Shown: one piece after another, positions 54,991 through 64,000 of the stretch
How the letters are laid out: each line of letters opens with the position of its first letter
How positions within the stretch are numbered: the stretch's first letter is position 1
Assembly (NCBI RefSeq): GCF_000427885.1
Contig: NZ_ATYW01000002.1
Span: forward strand, 379,532 to 443,531
Source of the DNA: Glycomyces tenuis DSM 44171
GTDB lineage: Bacteria > Actinomycetota > Actinomycetes > Mycobacteriales > Micromonosporaceae
Length of the DNA stretch: 64,000 bases
Direction: 5' to 3'
Position numbers and translations under genes: made by a program
The notes under the pieces: generated by a model
What the model saw: only the letters and a program-made list of their open reading frames with translations
What the model was told of the DNA's origin: nothing
Databases searched by the model: none

Positions 54991-55551
54991 TCAGAGGGAG
55001 CCGACGATCTCCACGCCGGCGTCGCGCAACTCGCGCACGGCCCCGGTGTCGCCGCCCGGATGGGCGTGCACGAACGCCGTCGCGTCCAAGTCGACACTCA
55101 CCCGGTAGCCGAGCCGGACGGCGTCGCGGGCCGTGGCGGCGACGCACACGTCGCCCGCCAGGCCCACCACGGTCACGGCCTCGGCCCCGCTCGCGAGCAG
55201 GAGCCCCCCGAGCGGGCTCAGGCCGCCCGCGCCCGGCTGGTCCACTCCCGAGCCGAACAGCACGAAACCGGAGAAGCCGCCGGAGCGCCCGGGGCCCTTC
55301 GGCACGACCTCGCCGCGGACGTCGAGCTCGGGGTGCAGCTCGGCCTGGCCGTCCGGGTCGCCCTCGGGGAGTTCGACCGGTTCGACGTCGCGCGTGTAGT
55401 ACACCGGCGACCCGGCCTCGACCGCCGCGGCGACCCGCCGGTTGACCTCCTCGACGACCCGGTCGGCGCCCTGGACCGCGAGTCGCCCGTCCGGGTCGAC
55501 GAACGCCCGCTGCATGTCGATGACGATGAGCGCGTGCTGGGGAGTTGACAT
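54991..55551 (-). CDS. Nicotinamidase-like isochorismatase family protein
   Basis: 186 residues. The catalytic triad of nicotinamidases is placed as expected: Asp12 in 'VIDMQRAFVDP', the Lys in 'VVPKGPGRSGG' near 84, and the nucleophilic Cys in 'VGLAGDVCVAATARDAVRLGY' near 136. It probably hydrolyses nicotinamide to nicotinate in NAD salvage; amide hydrolases of other substrates are possible. The ATG has a GGAG site. It is convergent with the transglycosylase gene. Confidence 0.85.
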   Translation of the reverse strand: MSTPQHALIVIDMQRAFVDPDGRLAVQGADRVVEEVNRRVAAAVEAGSPVYYTRDVEPVELPEGDPDGQAELHPELDVRGEVVPKGPGRSGGFSGFVLFGSGVDQPGAGGLSPLGGLLLASGAEAVTVVGLAGDVCVAATARDAVRLGYRVSVDLDATAFVHAHPGGDTGAVRELRDAGVEIVGSL

Positions 55552-55758
55552 GGGGCTCCAATCGCTGTGCGGTGGCAGGTGCCGATGGCCTTCCGCACCA
55601 CCCTAAGGCCCGCGGGCGACCACCGCGGCCACCGGTGGCGCCCCGAGCTCCCTCGAGATCGCCGCCGCACCGTGCACCGCTGCGTCGATCGCATCGCCCG
55701 CCGAGGCGTTCGGTGAAAGCTGAGCCGCCGTCGTCCGAGCTGGACCCGGCGGGCGCGC

Positions 55759-56832
55759 TCAGCAGCCGACGTCGAAGGCCTCGGCCGGACCAGACGCTAT
55801 GAAGCCGAACACCTCCCGGCTCGTGCCAGCGTCGACGCGGGCGTTCCATCCCACGTCGGACGCCGAGACCGTCGAGCCCGACTGGCTCCAGTCCACGTTC
55901 CAGGCGCTCGAGACCTCCTGGCCGCTCGGCCACTCCCACGACAGGTCCCAGCCGTCCACGGCCTGATCCTCGGCGTGGATCGTGACCGCGCCCTGCCAGC
56001 TCGAGCCCCAGTCGTTGACCACCGAGACGCTCGCCAGGCACGAACCGCTCGGCGGGTCGGTGGGGTCGTCCGGCGGATCGGTCGGATCGCCGCCGCCGAT
56101 GTCGAGCGAGTAGCTCTCGGTGCTGTACCGGTGCCCGCCGGCCGAGGAGGTGATCTCGTATCCGAACTGGATCTGGTCGATCCGCACGTCCGGCATGCGG
56201 CCGGTCTCGTAGAGCCACCGCGCGACGTCGCTGATGCCGACCGTGGCCGAGTCGGTATTGCCGGTGCGGATGAAGCTGTAGACCTCGTTGGCGCCGTTGT
56301 TGCCGCGGTAGTAGTCGAAGGTGTGGCCGCCGACGGTCACGGTCGTCTCGTAGCTGCCGAGCGGCCCGACCGGGCCGACTTTGCTCAGCCAGATCATGAT
56401 CTCGTGCTCGTGCCCGTTGCCCCACACGTCGTAGGCGGCGTTGTAGGCGACGCCGTTCCCGCCGCTCGGGCCCTCGAAGGCGACGGTGCTGTTCACCTCG
56501 GGCATCTGGCTGACCTGCTCGCCGAGCGTGTAGGAGACATTCGGGTAGCTCTTGATGCCGCCGGTGTTCGGGTGGTCGGCGTCGACCCACCAGTGCGACT
56601 CGTCGACCGCCGAGATGGTCTGGGTTCCGGCTCCGGAGCCCCAGATGTTGTTGTAGACCGTGTAGTCGCCGTACATCGTGTTGCCCCACTGATCGCTGGA
56701 GGTCCAGGTGGGGGAGGTGTGGTCGGCGAAGGCGTTGAACCCCATGGGGCTCGCCGAGATCGCCAGCGCCAGGGCCGAGAAGGCCCCGAGGACCGCGATC
56801 TTCCAGGGTCGTTTCATGCGTCGTTGCTTCAT
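55759..56832 (-). CDS. Secreted endoglucanase, GH12 with CBM2
   Basis: 357 residues. A signal peptide (MKQRRMKRPWKIAVLGAF..., cleaved after FNAFA) is followed by a GH12 jelly-roll domain (about 40-255) with the nucleophile Glu in 'HEHEIMIWLSKVG' and the acid/base Glu in 'FGYEITSS'. A Pro/Thr/Asp linker (DPTDPPDDPTDPP) leads to a C-terminal family 2 cellulose-binding module with 'GWDLSWEWPSGQ' and 'DVGWNARVDAG'. It cuts cellulose or xyloglucan outside the cell. I start at 56832 because of the AAGGG site. A palindromic operator lies upstream. Confidence 0.94.
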   Translation of the reverse strand: MKQRRMKRPWKIAVLGAFSALALAISASPMGFNAFADHTSPTWTSSDQWGNTMYGDYTVYNNIWGSGAGTQTISAVDESHWWVDADHPNTGGIKSYPNVSYTLGEQVSQMPEVNSTVAFEGPSGGNGVAYNAAYDVWGNGHEHEIMIWLSKVGPVGPLGSYETTVTVGGHTFDYYRGNNGANEVYSFIRTGNTDSATVGISDVARWLYETGRMPDVRIDQIQFGYEITSSAGGHRYSTESYSLDIGGGDPTDPPDDPTDPPSGSCLASVSVVNDWGSSWQGAVTIHAEDQAVDGWDLSWEWPSGQEVSSAWNVDWSQSGSTVSASDVGWNARVDAGTSREVFGFIASGPAEAFDVGC

Positions 56833-56930
56833 GGCCATGCCCTTGTGATCGGGGCGGGAGCGCGCGGATGCCGGGATCGACCGCCGCTGCCGCCGAGGAG
56901 TCGACGCCGCCAATTAATATTGACGAACGT

Positions 56931-57020: not shown

Positions 57021-57935
57021 TTACAGCCCGGCCGCCGATGAGACTCGCACCGAACGCAGCAGCAGCCTCGCGTCGCCCAACCGCCGCTTGAGGCGCCGCT
57101 CCAGTCCCGCGATGGGCGTGAGGTTCTGCGGAGCGCGCGCGTCCTTGTGCGCGGCGGACCCCAAGGGCGGCAAGGCCGCGGCGGTCGCATCGGCCAGCGC
57201 GATCGCCGCCTCCTCGCTCAAGGCGTCGGCGGCCTCGATCCTGGCCACGCCCGCCCAGCCCCGCGAGCCCGCCCCCGGCAGCCGCAGATACCACGAGTAG
57301 CGCGGCCACGTCGTCAGCAGGTGGAACACCGGCGTGCGCTGCCCGGGCCGCAGCTGCTCCACCACGCCGTTCAACGGCCCCTGAAGATAGGACCGGTGGT
57401 GGCTCTTGATGTAGCCCACCGCGTTCGGCAGCCTGGTGCGCCCGCGCAGCGTCCCGTCGAGCACGGACAGCTCGGCGTCCATGGCGACGGCGGCGGCGAC
57501 CTTCGCCTCCAAGGCCGCCATGGCGGCCTGGCTGGCGGCGATGAGCTCGGCCGAGTCGGCCGCGTCGGCCTTGCGGTACGGGTACTGGCCGAAGTCGGTG
57601 CCCGGATCGAGCGGCGCGAACAGGCCCCGCTCGACCGAGGACTCGGTGACGGCCGAAGTGCCCCCGTCGAGGTCGCAGGCGACGGCGCCGGCGGCCCAGG
57701 AGACGCACACGCCGGGCCAGCGGCCGGCCTCGTCGCTCAGCTCGACGCGCGCGTCGACGCGCCTGACGCCGTCGACCACCAGCAGCCGCGTCGGGCCCGC
57801 ACCGGGCGCGTCCACCGGCGCCCACGCCTTGGCCGGCGTCTCCACCTCGACGTTGACGGTGGCCGAGTCCGAGCGCGACGGCGACTCGGCGTTGTCGGCG
57901 AAGGACGGATCCCAGGCGTCGACGGTGATCTGCAC
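57021..57935 (-). CDS. nurA: NurA-like 5'-3' nuclease
   Basis: 304 residues from a GTG at 57935. NurA motifs are in order: Asp55 in 'LLVVDGVRRVDARVEL', Asp160 in 'ELSVLDGTLRG', then 'AVGYIKSHHRSYL' with Lys177, and a late 'TTWPRYSWYLRLPG' strand. NurA is a metal-dependent nuclease that works with the HerA translocase and Mre11-Rad50 in DNA end resection in archaea. It is the last gene of the herA-sbcD-sbcC-nurA block and starts 2 bp after sbcC, with its ribosome site inside the sbcC end. The assignment rests on motifs and context. Confidence 0.8.
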   Translation of the reverse strand: MQITVDAWDPSFADNAESPSRSDSATVNVEVETPAKAWAPVDAPGAGPTRLLVVDGVRRVDARVELSDEAGRWPGVCVSWAAGAVACDLDGGTSAVTESSVERGLFAPLDPGTDFGQYPYRKADAADSAELIAASQAAMAALEAKVAAAVAMDAELSVLDGTLRGRTRLPNAVGYIKSHHRSYLQGPLNGVVEQLRPGQRTPVFHLLTTWPRYSWYLRLPGAGSRGWAGVARIEAADALSEEAAIALADATAAALPPLGSAAHKDARAPQNLTPIAGLERRLKRRLGDARLLLRSVRVSSAAGL

Positions 57936-57937
57936 GG

Positions 57938-60370
57938 CTACTCCAGAGTCTTCTCGACGTGGGAACCCTTGGCGTCCTTGACGATACGGAAACGAACCGG
58001 CACGCGCTCGGCGAGGTCGGCGACGTGCGTGACCAGCCCGACGGTGCGCTCGCTGGAGACCGTCAGCGCCTCCAGCGTGGTGGCGACGGCGTCGAGGGTC
58101 TCCGGGTCGAGCGTGCCGAAGCCCTCGTCGAGGATGATCGACTCCAGGCACGCGCCGTCGCGCGAGAGGCTCGCCAACTGGTCGGACAGCGCGAGCGCCA
58201 GCGACAGCGACGCCGCGAAGGTCTCGCCGCCCGACAGGCTCCGCGCCGGGCGCGCCATGTCCGCGTCGTGGTGGTCGACCACCCAGAAGTCCTGGTCGCG
58301 GTAGATCAGGTCGTACTGGCCGCCGGTGATGCGGCCCAGCATGACCGTCGCCCCGGCGACGAGCTCGTCGAGCGCCTCGCTCAACAGCCACTCCATGAAG
58401 CGGCGGGCCTCCAGATGCTTCGCGAGCTCCTTGGCGACCTCGGCCTCGTGCGCGAAGCGGCGCGCCTCGGCCTCGAGCTCGACGCGGCGGCCCCGCGCCT
58501 CGCGCAGCTGCGCGGCCGCCGCCCGAGCGGACTCGACGGCCGCGGCGTGCACGGCCACGTAGTCGCCGCCGGTGCCCGTGCGCGGCACGGCGACGTCGAA
58601 CTCGGTCATCGCGGCGAGCAGCTCGGCCCGCAGCGTCGCGGCCCGCCCGTCGAGCGACTTGAGTTCCGCTCGGGCGGCCTCGCGTGCGGCCGAAGCCTTC
58701 TCCAGCGCCCCCGCGGCCCATTCGACGAGGCGCCCCCAGCTCTCGGCCAGGTCCGCCCCGGCCGCTGGCGGCCCGAGGACGGCGACCTGGTCCCGGGCGT
58801 GCCCGAACTCCCGCCAGGCCCGCTGCTGCTGCTCTTCGGCGCCCGCCTTGCGCTTCTCGGCCTCCCGCAGCGCCCGCCTCGCGGCCTTGAGCGCCGCGGC
58901 GGTGCCGCTGAGCAGCCGCCCCGCCTCGGCCGCGGCCTCGCGGCGAGCCTGGAGCGCATCGGCTTCCGGCACGCCTTCGAGCTTCTTGACCAGGCGGCGG
59001 CGCTTGACGTCGAGCTCGGTGAGGCGCTCGGTGTAGCTGTCGAGCTTCGCCTGGAGGTTCACCACGGCGGCCTGCGCGTCCTTGTACTCGGCGGTGGCCG
59101 TCTGCGACGCCTGCTGGGCCTCCTCCAGGGCCGCGGAGAGGTCCCGCTCGGGGACCGCCTCGACGGCGCGGTCGCACACCGGGCAGTCCTCTCCGGCGGC
59201 CAGCTCGGCCCGCAGCGTCCCGGCCAGGTCCGCCATGCGGGCCTTGTGGACGGCGGCGTGCTGGATCTCGACCTCTTCGGCGGCGGCCCCTTCGAGCTCC
59301 TTGGCCTCCTCGAACTGGTGGCGCAGCTCCTCGGTCAGCTCGCGGCCGGTCTTCAGGCTCGCCTCGGTCTCGGCGAGCTCCTCCCACGCCTTGAGCTGCC
59401 GCTCGATGAGCGCCAGATCGAGCCCGTCGAGTTCGGCGCGCAGACGCTCGTCCTCGGCCTCGGTGGCCTCGACCTCCGCGGCCTTCGCCTTGACGCGTTC
59501 GAGCGCGTCGGCGAGCTGCGCGGCGATGTCGTCGACGCCGCCGGGCCGCTTGATGTACGTCAGGGACGCCAGGTTCGCCTCGCCCTCGCTCAGGCGCCGC
59601 CGAGCGGTCTCGACGGCGGTCTCGAGCCCGTCGAGCGCCCCGGCCTTGTCCCGCACCGGCTCGGTGAGCTTCTCGAGCTTCTCGACCCGCAGCGCCGCCG
59701 CCGCGAGGTCCTCATCGCTCACCTGCGGGACCTTCTGCAGCTGCGCCTCGAGGGTCCGCTGCGCCGTGGCGGCGGCGTCCCGTTTGGCGCCCGCGAGCTG
59801 CTGGACCCTCCGATAGGCGCTGTGCCCCAAGAGGTTCTCGAGGATCTTGCGCCGGTCGGCGGCCGTGGCGTGCAGGAACTCGGCGAACTCGCCCTGCGGC
59901 AGCAGCACGCACTTGGTGAACTGGTCGAACGGCAGCCCCACGATCCGCTCGGCGGCGGCGCTCACCGCCGAGGGGCTCCCCGCGAGCGGCCTGCCCAGGC
60001 CCTCGACGAGCTCGGTGTCGTCGGCCGGGTCCACCCCGTCCGGCAGCTGCTCCAAAGCGGCCATGGTGGTCTTGACGTTGCCGTTCTTGTCGCGTCGCAG
60101 GATCCTGGTCGCCACGTAGTTGGCGCCCGCGGCGGCGAACACCAGCCGCACCCGCCCCTCCACCGCCGACGGGGCGATCGCGTGCTGCGTGGTGTTGTTG
60201 CGCCACCGCGGCGTGCGCCCGTACAGCGCGAAGCACATCGCGTCGAGCACCGTGGACTTGCCCGCGCCGGTGGGGCCGGTGAGCGCGAAGAAGTCGACGT
60301 CGGTGAAGTCGAGCGTCGAGGCCTCGGTGTAGGAACCGAAGCCGTGCATGTCCAAGCGTATCGGCCGCAT
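57938..60370 (-). CDS. sbcC: Exonuclease SbcC / Rad50-type SMC ATPase
   Basis: 810 residues from the ATG at 60370. Walker A is 'LTGPTGAGKSTVLDAM' near residue 30. Two long coiled coils flank the zinc hook CPVC (ED-CPVC-DRA near 395). The ABC signature is 'SLSGGETFAASLSLALALSD' near 710, and Walker B 'SIILDEGFGTLDPETLDAV' near 740. It is shorter than the ~1050-residue E. coli SbcC and nearer archaeal Rad50, so the coiled arms are short. With SbcD it opens hairpins and processes double-strand ends. TGATG overlap with sbcD. Confidence 0.95.
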   Translation of the reverse strand: MRPIRLDMHGFGSYTEASTLDFTDVDFFALTGPTGAGKSTVLDAMCFALYGRTPRWRNNTTQHAIAPSAVEGRVRLVFAAAGANYVATRILRRDKNGNVKTTMAALEQLPDGVDPADDTELVEGLGRPLAGSPSAVSAAAERIVGLPFDQFTKCVLLPQGEFAEFLHATAADRRKILENLLGHSAYRRVQQLAGAKRDAAATAQRTLEAQLQKVPQVSDEDLAAAALRVEKLEKLTEPVRDKAGALDGLETAVETARRRLSEGEANLASLTYIKRPGGVDDIAAQLADALERVKAKAAEVEATEAEDERLRAELDGLDLALIERQLKAWEELAETEASLKTGRELTEELRHQFEEAKELEGAAAEEVEIQHAAVHKARMADLAGTLRAELAAGEDCPVCDRAVEAVPERDLSAALEEAQQASQTATAEYKDAQAAVVNLQAKLDSYTERLTELDVKRRRLVKKLEGVPEADALQARREAAAEAGRLLSGTAAALKAARRALREAEKRKAGAEEQQQRAWREFGHARDQVAVLGPPAAGADLAESWGRLVEWAAGALEKASAAREAARAELKSLDGRAATLRAELLAAMTEFDVAVPRTGTGGDYVAVHAAAVESARAAAAQLREARGRRVELEAEARRFAHEAEVAKELAKHLEARRFMEWLLSEALDELVAGATVMLGRITGGQYDLIYRDQDFWVVDHHDADMARPARSLSGGETFAASLSLALALSDQLASLSRDGACLESIILDEGFGTLDPETLDAVATTLEALTVSSERTVGLVTHVADLAERVPVRFRIVKDAKGSHVEKTLE

Positions 60371-61527
60371 CAGGTCTCCTCTGCCGCGACGGTCTGCGTC
60401 TCCTCGTACAGCTCGGCGAACAGCTTCGCCACGGCCGGGTCGTCGTGCCCGGTCTCGGCGAGGTAGGCGTCGAACAGCTCCCCGGGGCTGCGGCCCGAGC
60501 GCCGCTGCCGCGGCGCGGCCGCCTCGGCGCGCATCACCGGGTCGATGTGGATCTGCACGGCCCGGGGGAACAGCTCGGCCACCTCGCCGCGCAGGCCCGC
60601 GCGGGCCGGTTCGGTGACGAACACCCGCAGCCACGCGCGCTCGTCCACTTCCACTTCGCGCAGCTCCTCGAGCGTGCCGCGCAGCGTCTTGAGCGGCACC
60701 GCCTCGCTCAGCGGCACCTGCCGCACCCGAGCGGGCGTGTCGGCGGTGACGTCGACGAGCGTCACGCTCGGCGTGTGGTCCTCCTCGCCGAAGTCCACCG
60801 CGAGCGGCCCGCCCGAGTACCGGATCGGGCACGGCCCCTCGATCTTCTGCGCCTTGTGCAGGTGCCCCAAGGCGACGTAGTTCGTCGAGGCCGGGAAGAC
60901 CGCCGCCGGGACCGCGTAGTCGGCCACGGTGTGGACCTCCCGCTCGCCGCCGCCGACCTTCCCGCCGACCACCGTCAGGTGCCCGCAGAACAGGTCCACC
61001 TCGTCGCCGCTGAAGCCCTGCGAGAGCGCGGACACCATGCGCCGCAGGTGATCGGCGTAGGCCGACTCGGTGTCCGCGGCGCTCAGCTCGAACAGCTCGG
61101 CCGCCCTGACCGCATACCGCTGGCTGACGAACGGCAGCGCCGCCAGCCGCCACCGCTCGCCGCCGGCCGTCTGCCCGGTGACGAGGTGGTCGGCGGCCTT
61201 GCCGATGCGGCCCCGCAGGTGGATGCCCGCGGCGGCGGCCCATTCCCGCAGCGCCTCCAGGCCCGGCCCGTTGTCGTGGTTCCCGGCGATCGCCACGACC
61301 TCGGCGCCCGTGTCGCGCAGCGCCGACAGCGTCGCCGTCAGCAGCTTCTGCGCGGCACTGGACGGCGAGGCCGTGTCGTACAGGTCCCCGGCCACGATCA
61401 CCAGGTCGACGCTTTCGTCGCGGGCGATCTGCACGATCTGGCCGAACACGGCCCGCTGCTCGTCCAGCCGCGCTCGGCCCTTCAACGTGACGCCGACGTG
61501 CCAGTCGGAGGTGTGCAGGATTCGCAA
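60370..61527 (-). CDS. sbcD: Exonuclease SbcD / Mre11-type nuclease
   Basis: 385 residues. All five metallophosphoesterase motifs are visible: SDWHVG (D7, H9), 'VIVAGDLYDTA', 'AIAGNHDNGPG', 'FCGHLTV' and 'VALGHLHKAQ'. It is the manganese-dependent nuclease subunit acting with SbcC. The TTG start at 61527 is preceded by a GAGGAG site 6 bases away, which decides for this rare start. The gap to herA is 20 bp. Confidence 0.94.
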   Translation of the reverse strand: MRILHTSDWHVGVTLKGRARLDEQRAVFGQIVQIARDESVDLVIVAGDLYDTASPSSAAQKLLTATLSALRDTGAEVVAIAGNHDNGPGLEALREWAAAAGIHLRGRIGKAADHLVTGQTAGGERWRLAALPFVSQRYAVRAAELFELSAADTESAYADHLRRMVSALSQGFSGDEVDLFCGHLTVVGGKVGGGEREVHTVADYAVPAAVFPASTNYVALGHLHKAQKIEGPCPIRYSGGPLAVDFGEEDHTPSVTLVDVTADTPARVRQVPLSEAVPLKTLRGTLEELREVEVDERAWLRVFVTEPARAGLRGEVAELFPRAVQIHIDPVMRAEAAAPRQRRSGRSPGELFDAYLAETGHDDPAVAKLFAELYEETQTVAAEET

Positions 61528-61547
61528 GGCGGACTCCTCAACGCGAG

Positions 61548-63263
61548 CTAGAACGGGATGTCGTCATCGTCATCGTCACCGGCGAGGTCGAACGGGTCGA
61601 CCTTCGCCGTCACGGACCTGGCCGACGACGCCGGGGCCGAGCCCGCCTCGGCCGGCCTGGTGGCCCACGCCGGGAACGGGAAGTTCACCACCAGCGGCAC
61701 CGGCAGCTCCGGCTGGCCGACGAACATGGTGCCCGGCTTGGCCATCAGCACCCGCTGGCGCTGCGCCTGCGTGAGGAAGCCGTACTCCGGGCGCGTCGCC
61801 TCGGCCGCGTCGAGGCGCCCGACGACGCGCACCGCCGAGTTCGAGGCGATGCGCCGCTCGACCTCGCTGGCGGTCTGCTGCGCTCCGATGAGGACCACCC
61901 CGAGCGAGCGGCCGCGCTCGGCGATGTCGAGCAGGATGTCCTTGATCGGGCTGGTGCCCTCCCGCGGCGCGTACTTGTTGAGCTCGTCGAGGACGACGAA
62001 CTGGAGCGGCCGGGCCGTCCCGGCCTTCTCCTTGCGCTCGAACTCGCCGCGCAGCACCACGCCGACGACGAAGCGCTGCGCCCGGTCGGGCAGGTTGTGC
62101 AGGTCCACGACCGTCACCTGCGCCTCGGAGGAGATCGCCTTGCCCCGCGGCGGCAGGTCCCCGCGGATGAGCCGCCCGATGTCCCGCCCGGAGGCGATGA
62201 GGCGGCGGATGAACGCGTTGACCGTGCCCAGGCCGATCGCCGAACCGGCCCATTCGATGCGGGTGGCGTCGTCGGAGAGCCGCTCGCAGATCAGGTCGAC
62301 CAGGTCCCGGTACGTCGTCAGCAGCTGCCCGTCGACGGCGACCGCGCCGTTGTCCTTCGGGCGGGCCTCCTTGCGCAGCCGCGCGGCCACCTGGTGGACG
62401 ACCATCGTGTACTGCTGGCGGTCGTCGTCGGCGTCGGCGAACACGAACGGCAGGAGTCCGCCGGAGCAGAACTCGGCGAGCGTCCAGTAGAACGCGTCGA
62501 CGCCGGTGGACCGGCACGCCACGTCCGGGACGCCGTTGTTGTCGCCCTCCCGGGGCGGGGCGAGCACCTCCACGGACTTGAACGCCCCCGGCGCCATCCC
62601 CAGCTTCCGGTACGATTCGCGGATCTCGTCGTCGATCCTGGTGTTGTCGTGGTCGAGCAGCAGCAGGTCCTCGCCCTTGACGTTGAAGATCAGCGCCTTC
62701 GTGTTCGCGGCCTCGGCGCCGATCGCGCCCGAGTGCAGCAGCGAGTACAGCAGCCACGTCGCGAACGACGTCTTCGTCGCCACGCCTGAGATGCCCGAGA
62801 TGGACACGTGCGCGCCGCGGGTGCCGTCGAGGAAGTCGGCGTTGAGGAACACCGCCTGGCCGTCCCGTGAGAACCCCAGCGGCACTTGGCGTTCCATGCC
62901 GTCGAAGTACAGTGCCCGGTCCCGCTCGGAGCCGGTGGCGCGCTCGACCGCCGCGCCCGGCGTCGGCGGCACGAACACCTCGGGCTCCACTCTCGTCACA
63001 GTGACCTCGGCGGCCTCCTGCACCTGCGCGGGCAGCAGCCCTCCGGCGATGTCGAACACGTCGGAGTCGAACTGCGCGCCCTCGTGGCGGCTGCGGACCG
63101 CGGTGACCACCCCGGAGATGCGGACCGGCCCCACGCCGGGGACCTCCCGCTCGGTGGTGAGCACGTCGTCGAGCTGCGCGTACGCCTCCGGGCCGACGCC
63201 GACCCAGAACGAGAGGGGTGTGGCGTCCTCGGTGCCGAGCACCCTGCCCACCGAATCATTCAT
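61548..63263 (-). CDS. herA: HerA-like hexameric DNA translocase ATPase (DUF87 family)
   Basis: 571 residues. An N-terminal HAS-barrel-like beta domain (about 1-100) is followed by the RecA-like core. Walker A is degenerate: 'SGISGVATKTSF' with Lys164 but Thr where the second Gly should be. Walker B is 'FVVLDELNKYAP' (Asp426, Glu427), and the arginine-finger/sensor stretch is 'IGAQQTASEVERR'. The very C-terminus is an acidic DDDDDD run. HerA pumps DNA to NurA in end processing. The ATG at 63263 fits the AGAGG site; upstream ATG codons at 63272 and 63269 are alternatives. It overlaps the reductase gene upstream. Confidence 0.88.
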   Translation of the reverse strand: MNDSVGRVLGTEDATPLSFWVGVGPEAYAQLDDVLTTEREVPGVGPVRISGVVTAVRSRHEGAQFDSDVFDIAGGLLPAQVQEAAEVTVTRVEPEVFVPPTPGAAVERATGSERDRALYFDGMERQVPLGFSRDGQAVFLNADFLDGTRGAHVSISGISGVATKTSFATWLLYSLLHSGAIGAEAANTKALIFNVKGEDLLLLDHDNTRIDDEIRESYRKLGMAPGAFKSVEVLAPPREGDNNGVPDVACRSTGVDAFYWTLAEFCSGGLLPFVFADADDDRQQYTMVVHQVAARLRKEARPKDNGAVAVDGQLLTTYRDLVDLICERLSDDATRIEWAGSAIGLGTVNAFIRRLIASGRDIGRLIRGDLPPRGKAISSEAQVTVVDLHNLPDRAQRFVVGVVLRGEFERKEKAGTARPLQFVVLDELNKYAPREGTSPIKDILLDIAERGRSLGVVLIGAQQTASEVERRIASNSAVRVVGRLDAAEATRPEYGFLTQAQRQRVLMAKPGTMFVGQPELPVPLVVNFPFPAWATRPAEAGSAPASSARSVTAKVDPFDLAGDDDDDDIPF

Positions 63264-63268
63264 GCGCA

Positions 63269-64000
63269 TCATCCTCTCAGGTACCGGAGGATCAGGTTGC
63301 CCTCGGCTTCGATGACGTGTCGCAGCCGCAGCGGCCGGGCCGACGCGGCCGCCCGCCCCTCCGCGACCCGGATCGGGCCCGCGCCCACGAGCAGCGGCGA
63401 GACCGTCAGACACAGCTCGTCGACCAGGTCGGCGGCGATCAGCTCGCCGAAGACCCGCGGCCCGCCCTCGCACAGGACGCGCCGCAGGCCCCGCTCGCGA
63501 AGCACCCCGAGCGCCGCCTCGTAGTCGATCTCGCCGTGGCCGACCGCGACGACGTCGGCCACCTCCCGCAGCGCCGCCATGTGGCCCACGGCGGCGTCGG
63601 CCGCGCAGACCACGACCGGGCGGCGCGGCGCGTGCGTGAACAGCGCCGCCTCCGGATCGAGCCGGGCCGACCGCGACGCCACCGCCATCACCGGCACCCG
63701 GGGGAGCCCCCGCTCCGTGCGCCAGGCCTCCCGCTCGGGGTCGAGCACCAGCGGCCCGTAGCCTTCGGCGAGCACCGTCCCCGAGCCGGCGAGCAGCACG
63801 TCGCACGAGGCGCGCAACACCTTGAAGACCCGCTTGTCGGCCTTCCCCGACAGCGGCCCGGAAAGCCCTTCCAATGTGGCCGCCCCGTCGGCGCTGGACA
63901 CGAAGTTGACCCGCAGCCAATCCTCCTCGGGAGGCTCGTACGCCTCGTGGAGTTCGGCCTCGCTCAGCTCGTCGAGCCTGAGATACTGCACATCTGGCAC
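63269..64000 (-). CDS. RibD C-terminal / dihydrofolate reductase-like pyrimidine reductase (may extend past the window)
   Basis: 243 residues in view, from a GTG at the very edge. The RibD-C/DHFR-like fold shows 'WLRVNFVSSADGAAT', 'LLAGSGTVLAEGYGPL' and 'VLCEGGPRVFGELIAADLVDELCLTVSPLLVG', the last being typical of 5-amino-6-ribosylaminouracil reductases. It probably reduces a flavin precursor or a related pyrimidine with NADPH. Its TGA overlaps the start region of herA, so it leads the repair operon. The true start could lie beyond base 64000, but the N-terminus has family length. Confidence 0.85.
   Translation of the reverse strand: MPDVQYLRLDELSEAELHEAYEPPEEDWLRVNFVSSADGAATLEGLSGPLSGKADKRVFKVLRASCDVLLAGSGTVLAEGYGPLVLDPEREAWRTERGLPRVPVMAVASRSARLDPEAALFTHAPRRPVVVCAADAAVGHMAALREVADVVAVGHGEIDYEAALGVLRERGLRRVLCEGGPRVFGELIAADLVDELCLTVSPLLVGAGPIRVAEGRAAASARPLRLRHVIEAEGNLILRYLRG

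Follow-up and report, generated by a model that had tools for sequence, protein, structure and literature searches.

A herA–sbcD–sbcC–nurA locus of bacterial type behind a putative damage promoter in Glycomyces tenuis

Results

In a 64,000-nucleotide stretch of the soil actinobacterium Glycomyces tenuis DSM 44171 (contig NZ_ATYW01000002.1, positions 379,532 to 443,531; this whole stretch is called the window below), herA, sbcD, sbcC, and nurA are four consecutive minus-strand genes, in that order. They probably form a damage-inducible operon, whose products would process broken DNA ends by means of a NurA–HerA pair of the bacterial type and SbcCD, beside AdnAB. The direct results behind this reading are the identities of the four proteins, their intact active sites, the conserved linkage of the genes, and a promoter motif. 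The genes are laid out as follows (window coordinates; aa, amino acids).

herA: 61548..63263, minus strand; ATG 63263 (or 63272) to TAG 61548; 571 aa (574 aa from 63272)
sbcD: 60370..61527, minus strand; TTG 61527 to TGA 60370; 385 aa
sbcC: 57938..60370, minus strand; ATG 60370 to TAG 57938; 810 aa
nurA: 57021..57935, minus strand; GTG 57935 to TAA 57021; 304 aa
ribD-like gene: 63269..64000, minus strand, with its start just beyond the window end; pyrimidine reductase (RibD_C; PF01872, 2.1e-31)

A preliminary description of this DNA had placed the four genes in a single operon, and the coordinates bear out the junctions that it gave. The herA stop and the sbcD start are separated by 20 bp, sbcD and sbcC overlap by 1 bp, and 2 bp lie between sbcC and nurA. 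The single operon is supported. The TGA of the ribD-like gene overlaps the first possible herA ATG (63272) as ATGA, which makes the ribD-like gene, with its start outside the window, the probable first gene of the transcription unit. The later herA start candidate, ATG 63263, which was chosen in the preliminary description, has AGAGG nine bases upstream. A terminator scan gave no terminator-like site at the four-gene junctions on the operon strand; together with the sigma-70 promoter scan, it is uninformative in GC-rich DNA.

The LexA/RecA-independent damage promoter (P1) has the consensus tTGTCRgtg-8nt-TannnT, and P1-driven recA induction depends on PafBC (PMC5656591). A motif of this type, TTGTCGGGC-N8-TAGGTT (spacer CGATGAGT), was found at G000:C2:443538-443560 in the window genome, 7–29 bases past the window and directly before the ribD-like gene. 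It scores 10/12. The motif was kept at the same place in 13/13 other Glycomyces loci, scoring 9–12/12, with two perfect sites, whereas a score of 10 was reached by 0.8% of random windows from these loci. The Glycomyces motifs end 6–7 nucleotides before the likely ribD start, which is the same spacing as at recA and polA (7 nucleotides in both). Genome-wide, TTGTCRG-N10-TANNNT occurred at 14 sites, as compared with one for the reversed pattern. Other sites precede recA, polA, dnaX, an AlkZ-like glycosylase gene, a thiol peroxidase gene, and rpsF, and several of the 14 lie before genes with no known repair link. A pafB–pafC-like pair is present in the window genome, and its PafB-like protein matched the solved PafBC at 7e-35. 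The predicted damage control of the operon is well supported in Glycomyces only, because the motif recurs at all other loci of the genus and is shared with recA and polA, and because the genome carries the pafBC-like pair. The PafBC/P1-type motif before this transcription unit is new here. As a further observation, the genes behind such motifs make up a small candidate damage regulon in Glycomyces.

A search for a promoter motif common to all Micromonosporaceae found none. Among the members of this family, only Hamadaea and Catellatospora carried TTGTC-N12-TAGGGT, located 58–83 bp before herA. In these loci, control of the same kind may act directly at herA.

The four protein identities proposed in the preliminary description agreed with the sequence, profile, and fold matches. 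The herA product is a predicted hexameric translocase of the bacterial HerA type. It matched Deinococcus radiodurans HerA (7f6d_B) at E = 8.2e-138, and the aligned residues 5–294 and 317–553 cover nearly the full length; a Pfam search of the protein returned no match. The Walker A residues K167/T168, K199, D202, the Walker B residues D429/E430, the arginine finger R455, and the pore residues R437/R494 were conserved in 111 homologues. Their counterparts in D. radiodurans HerA are K175/T176, K217, D220, D487/E488, R513, and R495/R552 (PMC9960219). Of these, the residues matching K167/T168, D429/E430, R455, R437, and R494 are essential in D. radiodurans.

The 304-residue protein is, as judged from its sequence and its structural model, a NurA-family nuclease with the RNase H-like NurA fold. 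A phmmer search matched it to D. radiodurans NurA (7f6d_H) at E = 1.2e-19, and a 25-sequence NurA family profile reached 2.2e-37 for 7f6d_H and 2.6e-9 for Thermotoga maritima 1zup. The AlphaFold model (predicted local distance difference test score, pLDDT, 84.9) gave Foldseek values of 8e-17 to 7f6d_G, a D. radiodurans NurA chain, and 2e-12 to 1zup. The Z scores were 22.6 to 1zup and 22.4 to 7f6d_G, 14.6 to the archaeal Sulfolobus NurA 2ygk, and 9.3–12.4 to the Pyrococcus and Thermococcus entries. Residues D55, E143, D160, K177, and R267 were invariant in 93/93 homologues, and W8 was present in 92 of the 93. The essential residues of D. radiodurans NurA are W8, D53, K201, R309, and a further acid, with roles described in PMC9960219; the named ones have the conserved equivalents W8, D55, K177, and R267 in the window protein. 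Judging from these conserved essential residues, both the NurA and the HerA enzymes look active.

The preliminary description had suggested PF09376 as a check of the NurA assignment, and here the outcome was mixed. The window NurA had no Pfam match, PF09376 included, whereas 17 of 25 close relatives matched this family (E up to 0.1; best 3.5e-6); the Pfam model has little sensitivity for this branch. The identity was retained despite the Pfam miss, since the profile, the relatives, the fold, and the catalytic residues agree. A rejection of NurA on Pfam alone was considered and overruled by the family profile, the PF09376-matching relatives, and the fold. Separately, weak NurA-like matches (E 1e-7 to 1e-10; family code f63) were seen in five genomes without a HerA match (G245, G275, G285, G402, and G459). 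These proteins may represent another branch with a different partner.

The sbcD product is a predicted SbcD/Mre11-type nuclease. It scored 175.8 bits for TIGR00619, above the cut-off of 77.65 bits, and matched PF00149 (2.7e-14), PF12320 (SbcD_C), and a solved SbcD in the PDB (2e-33). The sbcC product is likewise predicted to be an SbcC/Rad50-type ATPase. Both ATPase halves were recognized (PF13476 AAA_23 and PF13558 SbcC_Walker_B), and the match to 6s6v_C, an SbcC in the PDB, reached 7.2e-38. The TIGR00618 match was 2.6e-75, yet under the family cut-off. GPTGAGKST, the CPVC zinc-hook motif, the LSGGE signature, and ILDEGFGTLD could be read in the translation.

The nearest structures and sequences of the window proteins belong to bacterial, not archaeal, subfamilies. 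The term archaeal-type, as used in the preliminary description, did not hold for the proteins: HerA and NurA are nearest to the Deinococcus/Thermotoga family, and SbcCD is bacterial. The archaeal label applies to the make-up of the gene set alone.

The linkage of the four genes was followed in sampled genomes. nurA was present in 22/22 Glycomyces genomes and in all three other sampled genera of the family (in one as a split match); in the other families of this order, just 2/16 genomes had it. For Glycomycetaceae and Micromonosporaceae, 80 named herA loci were compared, and nearly all that reach far enough have the order herA–sbcD–sbcC–nurA. Of 396 Actinomycetota genomes, 76 had herA, 79 had nurA, and 74 had both. 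A search of the 76 herA genomes for sbcD was positive in 74; whenever the two genes shared a contig (69/69 genomes), sbcD stood 3' of herA and on its strand, within 1 kb in 57. None of these counts is corrected for phylogenetic relatedness. These counts, together with the Oceanithermus precedent (PMC5448004), did not bear out the rarity of the full set that the preliminary description had implied. The Glycomyces locus is an ordinary conserved locus of its clade.

Two gene orders were observed, namely herA–sbcD–sbcC–nurA, as in the window, and nurA–herA–sbcD–sbcC. In 45 genomes nurA lies directly upstream of herA, and in those examples that are long enough to show it, sbcD and sbcC follow downstream. 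The HerA tree required one change between the two orders in 78% of the bootstrap trees. The same tree placed the window sequence inside Glycomyces, then with Stackebrandtia and Micromonosporaceae, with strong support. The four genes remain linked across families and orders, beyond chance. The divergences of the four proteins correlate (r = 0.93–0.98), which, as expected, fits co-inheritance, although a shared species history alone would give it too. The literature searched held no description of the four-gene cluster in Actinomycetota; an earlier mention is possible.

Two adjacent genes at G000:C2:168-175 kb encode homologues of the mycobacterial proteins AdnA (8e-154) and AdnB (1e-215), so the coexistence with AdnAB that the preliminary description had expected was confirmed. 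As AdnAB is encoded in the same genome, the operon does not replace it, and an explanation of the operon by AdnAB loss was rejected. adnB was found in 44/76 herA genomes and in 50/320 others; the co-occurrence is above chance in the sample, with a one-sequence query, a strict cut-off, and no phylogenetic correction.

The flanking genes were named by inspection. About 100 bp upstream of the ribD-like gene there is an FAD (flavin adenine dinucleotide)-linked oxidase-like reading frame. On the 3' side of nurA, the minus strand at 54991-56913 has a gene for a secreted protein resembling a glycoside hydrolase of family 12 with a cellulose-binding module, followed by an isochorismatase-like gene.

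Copies of the gene set were also seen on mobile elements. A Streptomyces sp. BB1-1-1 plasmid (L151:1-21617) carries the four genes in the order herA–sbcD–sbcC–nurA beside Wadjet jetA/B/C, an ImmA/IrrE gene, a helicase gene, and a restriction endonuclease gene. In two further plasmids, from Candidatus Chlorohelix (Chloroflexota; L155:2577-11891) and Aulosira laxa (Cyanobacteria; L156:2597-11909), an M78 (ImmA/IrrE) protease gene precedes nurA–herA–sbcD–sbcC. Both share a seven-gene order: sigma-factor-like gene, small acidic protein gene, M78 protease gene, nurA, herA, sbcD, and sbcC. This may be a mobile form of the cassette under the control of the protease. The viral contig search yielded one distant locus, and Marinitoga camini virus 1 (L157:3951-6659) encodes a nurA–herA pair, so that the pair serves a phage as well.

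Discussion

The probable role in end processing can be put as a sequence of steps. DNA damage would activate PafBC, which would drive ribD–herA–sbcD–sbcC–nurA from the P1/RecA-NDp-type promoter whose motif was observed. By analogy with its family, SbcCD would bind the broken end, open hairpins or protein-blocked ends, and nick. The HerA hexamer, in which the motor residues are conserved, would then thread onto the cleared duplex as in the D. radiodurans complex. With the NurA dimer at its exit, it would pull the DNA into the nuclease, where mainly the 5' strand would be cut during translocation, and the 3' tail would pass to RecA. We infer that the product would be recombinogenic 3' tails, rather than degraded or restrained ends.

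Several results weigh against this interpretation. Most sister Glycomyces have 0.1–2.7 kb between sbcC and nurA, and several of them carry unrelated genes there. Because of this gap, nurA is not necessarily on the same transcript. The 13 Glycomyces motif sites are not independent, the motif is absent in Stackebrandtia and in most of the Micromonosporaceae loci examined, and a LexA-box search gave nothing near the operon beyond chance. In D. radiodurans, the deletion of nurA–herA makes the cells about ten-fold more resistant to ultraviolet (UV) light and mitomycin (PMC9960219). The Thermococcus kodakarensis complex cuts both strands, and its authors doubt resection (PMC12977600).

The insert site itself deserves a separate remark. 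The unrelated genes between sbcC and nurA in several sister Glycomyces encode a carbonic-anhydrase-like protein, a major facilitator superfamily (MFS) transporter, or a pair of a helix-turn-helix (HTH) protein and a nucleotidyltransferase. This is a recurrent insertion site, which spans 2 bp in the window.

The D. radiodurans phenotype is the starting point of a rival explanation, in which end trimming or degradation by the four proteins would keep recombination in check or remove regressed forks, and their loss would raise resistance. The greater UV and mitomycin resistance of the nurA–herA deletion fits such a restraining role, as do the faster growth and the recJ-opposing effect of drnurA mutants (PMC4663267); moreover, AdnAB is already present for resection. 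The damage-promoter motif that the unit has in common with recA and polA points to a positive role in repair, although it is compatible with restraint too. On balance, we regard restraint as unlikely.

The alternative of a defense module, in which HerA–NurA and SbcCD degrade linear phage DNA or incoming plasmids, appears marginally less likely still. The HerA–nuclease systems SIR2-HerA and DUF4297-HerA act in this way, the HerA/NurA-like TdpAB may do so, and an antiviral role was proposed for archaeal HerA–NurA (PMC12977600). The window NurA model is also similar in fold to the NurA-like TdpAB chain (Z ~12.5). Among the mobile copies, the Streptomyces plasmid set adjoins Wadjet type II, the ImmA/IrrE gene, and the helicase, which matches restriction-enzyme models, while the cyanobacterial and Chloroflexota plasmids carry nurA–herA–sbcD–sbcC. 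The chromosomal locus, however, is single-copy, syntenic with ribD, and universal in the sampled genus and family, and it has the recA-like damage promoter motif. PADLOC gave weak, generic HerA/SMC-like matches and none for NurA; the defense HerA models reached at best 3.7e-6 over ~110 residues, and mad8 1.1e-9. The window HerA scored 13 bits against NCBIfam HerA_antiphage_2, with a cut-off of 850. From the collections of plasmid, phage, and viral sequences the close family is nearly absent, with 6, 2, and 1 records, respectively. The preliminary description had left the choice between a second resection route and a defense module. The conserved chromosomal locus and the recA-like promoter motif lead us to favor the second end-processing route, and the plasmid copies make a defense role possible for the mobile branch.

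That this actinobacterium recently acquired an end-resection operon from archaea is highly improbable: the same four families make up the archaeal operon, and archaeal transfer was proposed for Deinococcus-Thermus (PMC12977600, PMC5448004), but the strongly supported placement in the HerA tree and the presence of herA in 76 of the 396 phylum genomes led us to reject such a transfer into Glycomyces, and NurA is closer to the bacterial structures.

A broader proposal can be made only tentatively, and we would not yet bet on it. NurA–HerA–SbcD–SbcC may be one old bacterial end-processing machine rather than a late archaeal import. Many Actinomycetota would have inherited it whole, and in Glycomyces it would have come under PafBC to provide a second route of resection alongside AdnAB. 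If so, Deinococcus and Thermus would have lost the sbcDC linkage. The occurrence of the set in Actinomycetota questions the published view of bacterial herA–nurA as an archaeal import of Deinococcus-Thermus, as well as the view that SbcDC was recruited later in Oceanithermus. The role of bacterial NurA–HerA is disputed, as its loss raises damage resistance in D. radiodurans. The Actinomycetota set, which is linked to SbcCD, stands beside AdnAB, and has the recA/polA-type motif in one genus, offers a direct genetic test of whether the system resects, restrains, or defends.

Comparison with known systems

One of the closest known systems is the D. radiodurans NurA–HerA complex (7F6D, 7WRW, 7WRX; PMC9960219), with matches of 8e-138 for HerA and 1e-19 for NurA. 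The two HerA proteins share the same variant Walker A (GISGVATKTS), the Walker B, the arginine finger, and the pore arginines, and the equivalents of the NurA residues W8/D53/K201/R309 are present in Glycomyces. Unlike in the D. radiodurans nurA–herA operon, the Glycomyces pair flanks sbcD–sbcC and nurA comes last. Glycomyces also encodes AdnAB, whereas Deinococcus-Thermus is said to be without RecBCD/AddAB.

The four-gene bacterial cluster is already known in kind. In Oceanithermus profundus, nurA–hepA is followed by sbcD and sbcC downstream (PMC5448004), so the same four bacterial families are linked and sbcD/sbcC lies downstream of herA in both organisms. The Oceanithermus cluster starts with nurA, whereas in Glycomyces nurA is last and the RibD-like gene with the damage-promoter motif is first. 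The archaeal herA–mre11–rad50–nurA operon of Sulfolobus and Thermococcus (PMC2288612, PMC12977600) clusters the same four functional families. The Glycomyces unit differs from it by its bacterial subfamilies (NurA Z of 22 to bacterial and ≤14.6 to archaeal structures), its bacterial SbcCD, and its probable bacterial damage promoter.

Compared with Escherichia coli SbcCD (6s6v), SbcD is clear and the SbcC ATPase halves with the CPVC hook motif are shared, but the Glycomyces SbcC is short (810 vs. 1048 aa) and is encoded between herA and nurA. The nuclease subunit of TdpAB (8wet, 8wfd) shares its fold class with the Glycomyces NurA; this fold match is much weaker (Z ~12.5), and the PDB searches gave no sequence match between TdpAB and the window HerA or NurA.

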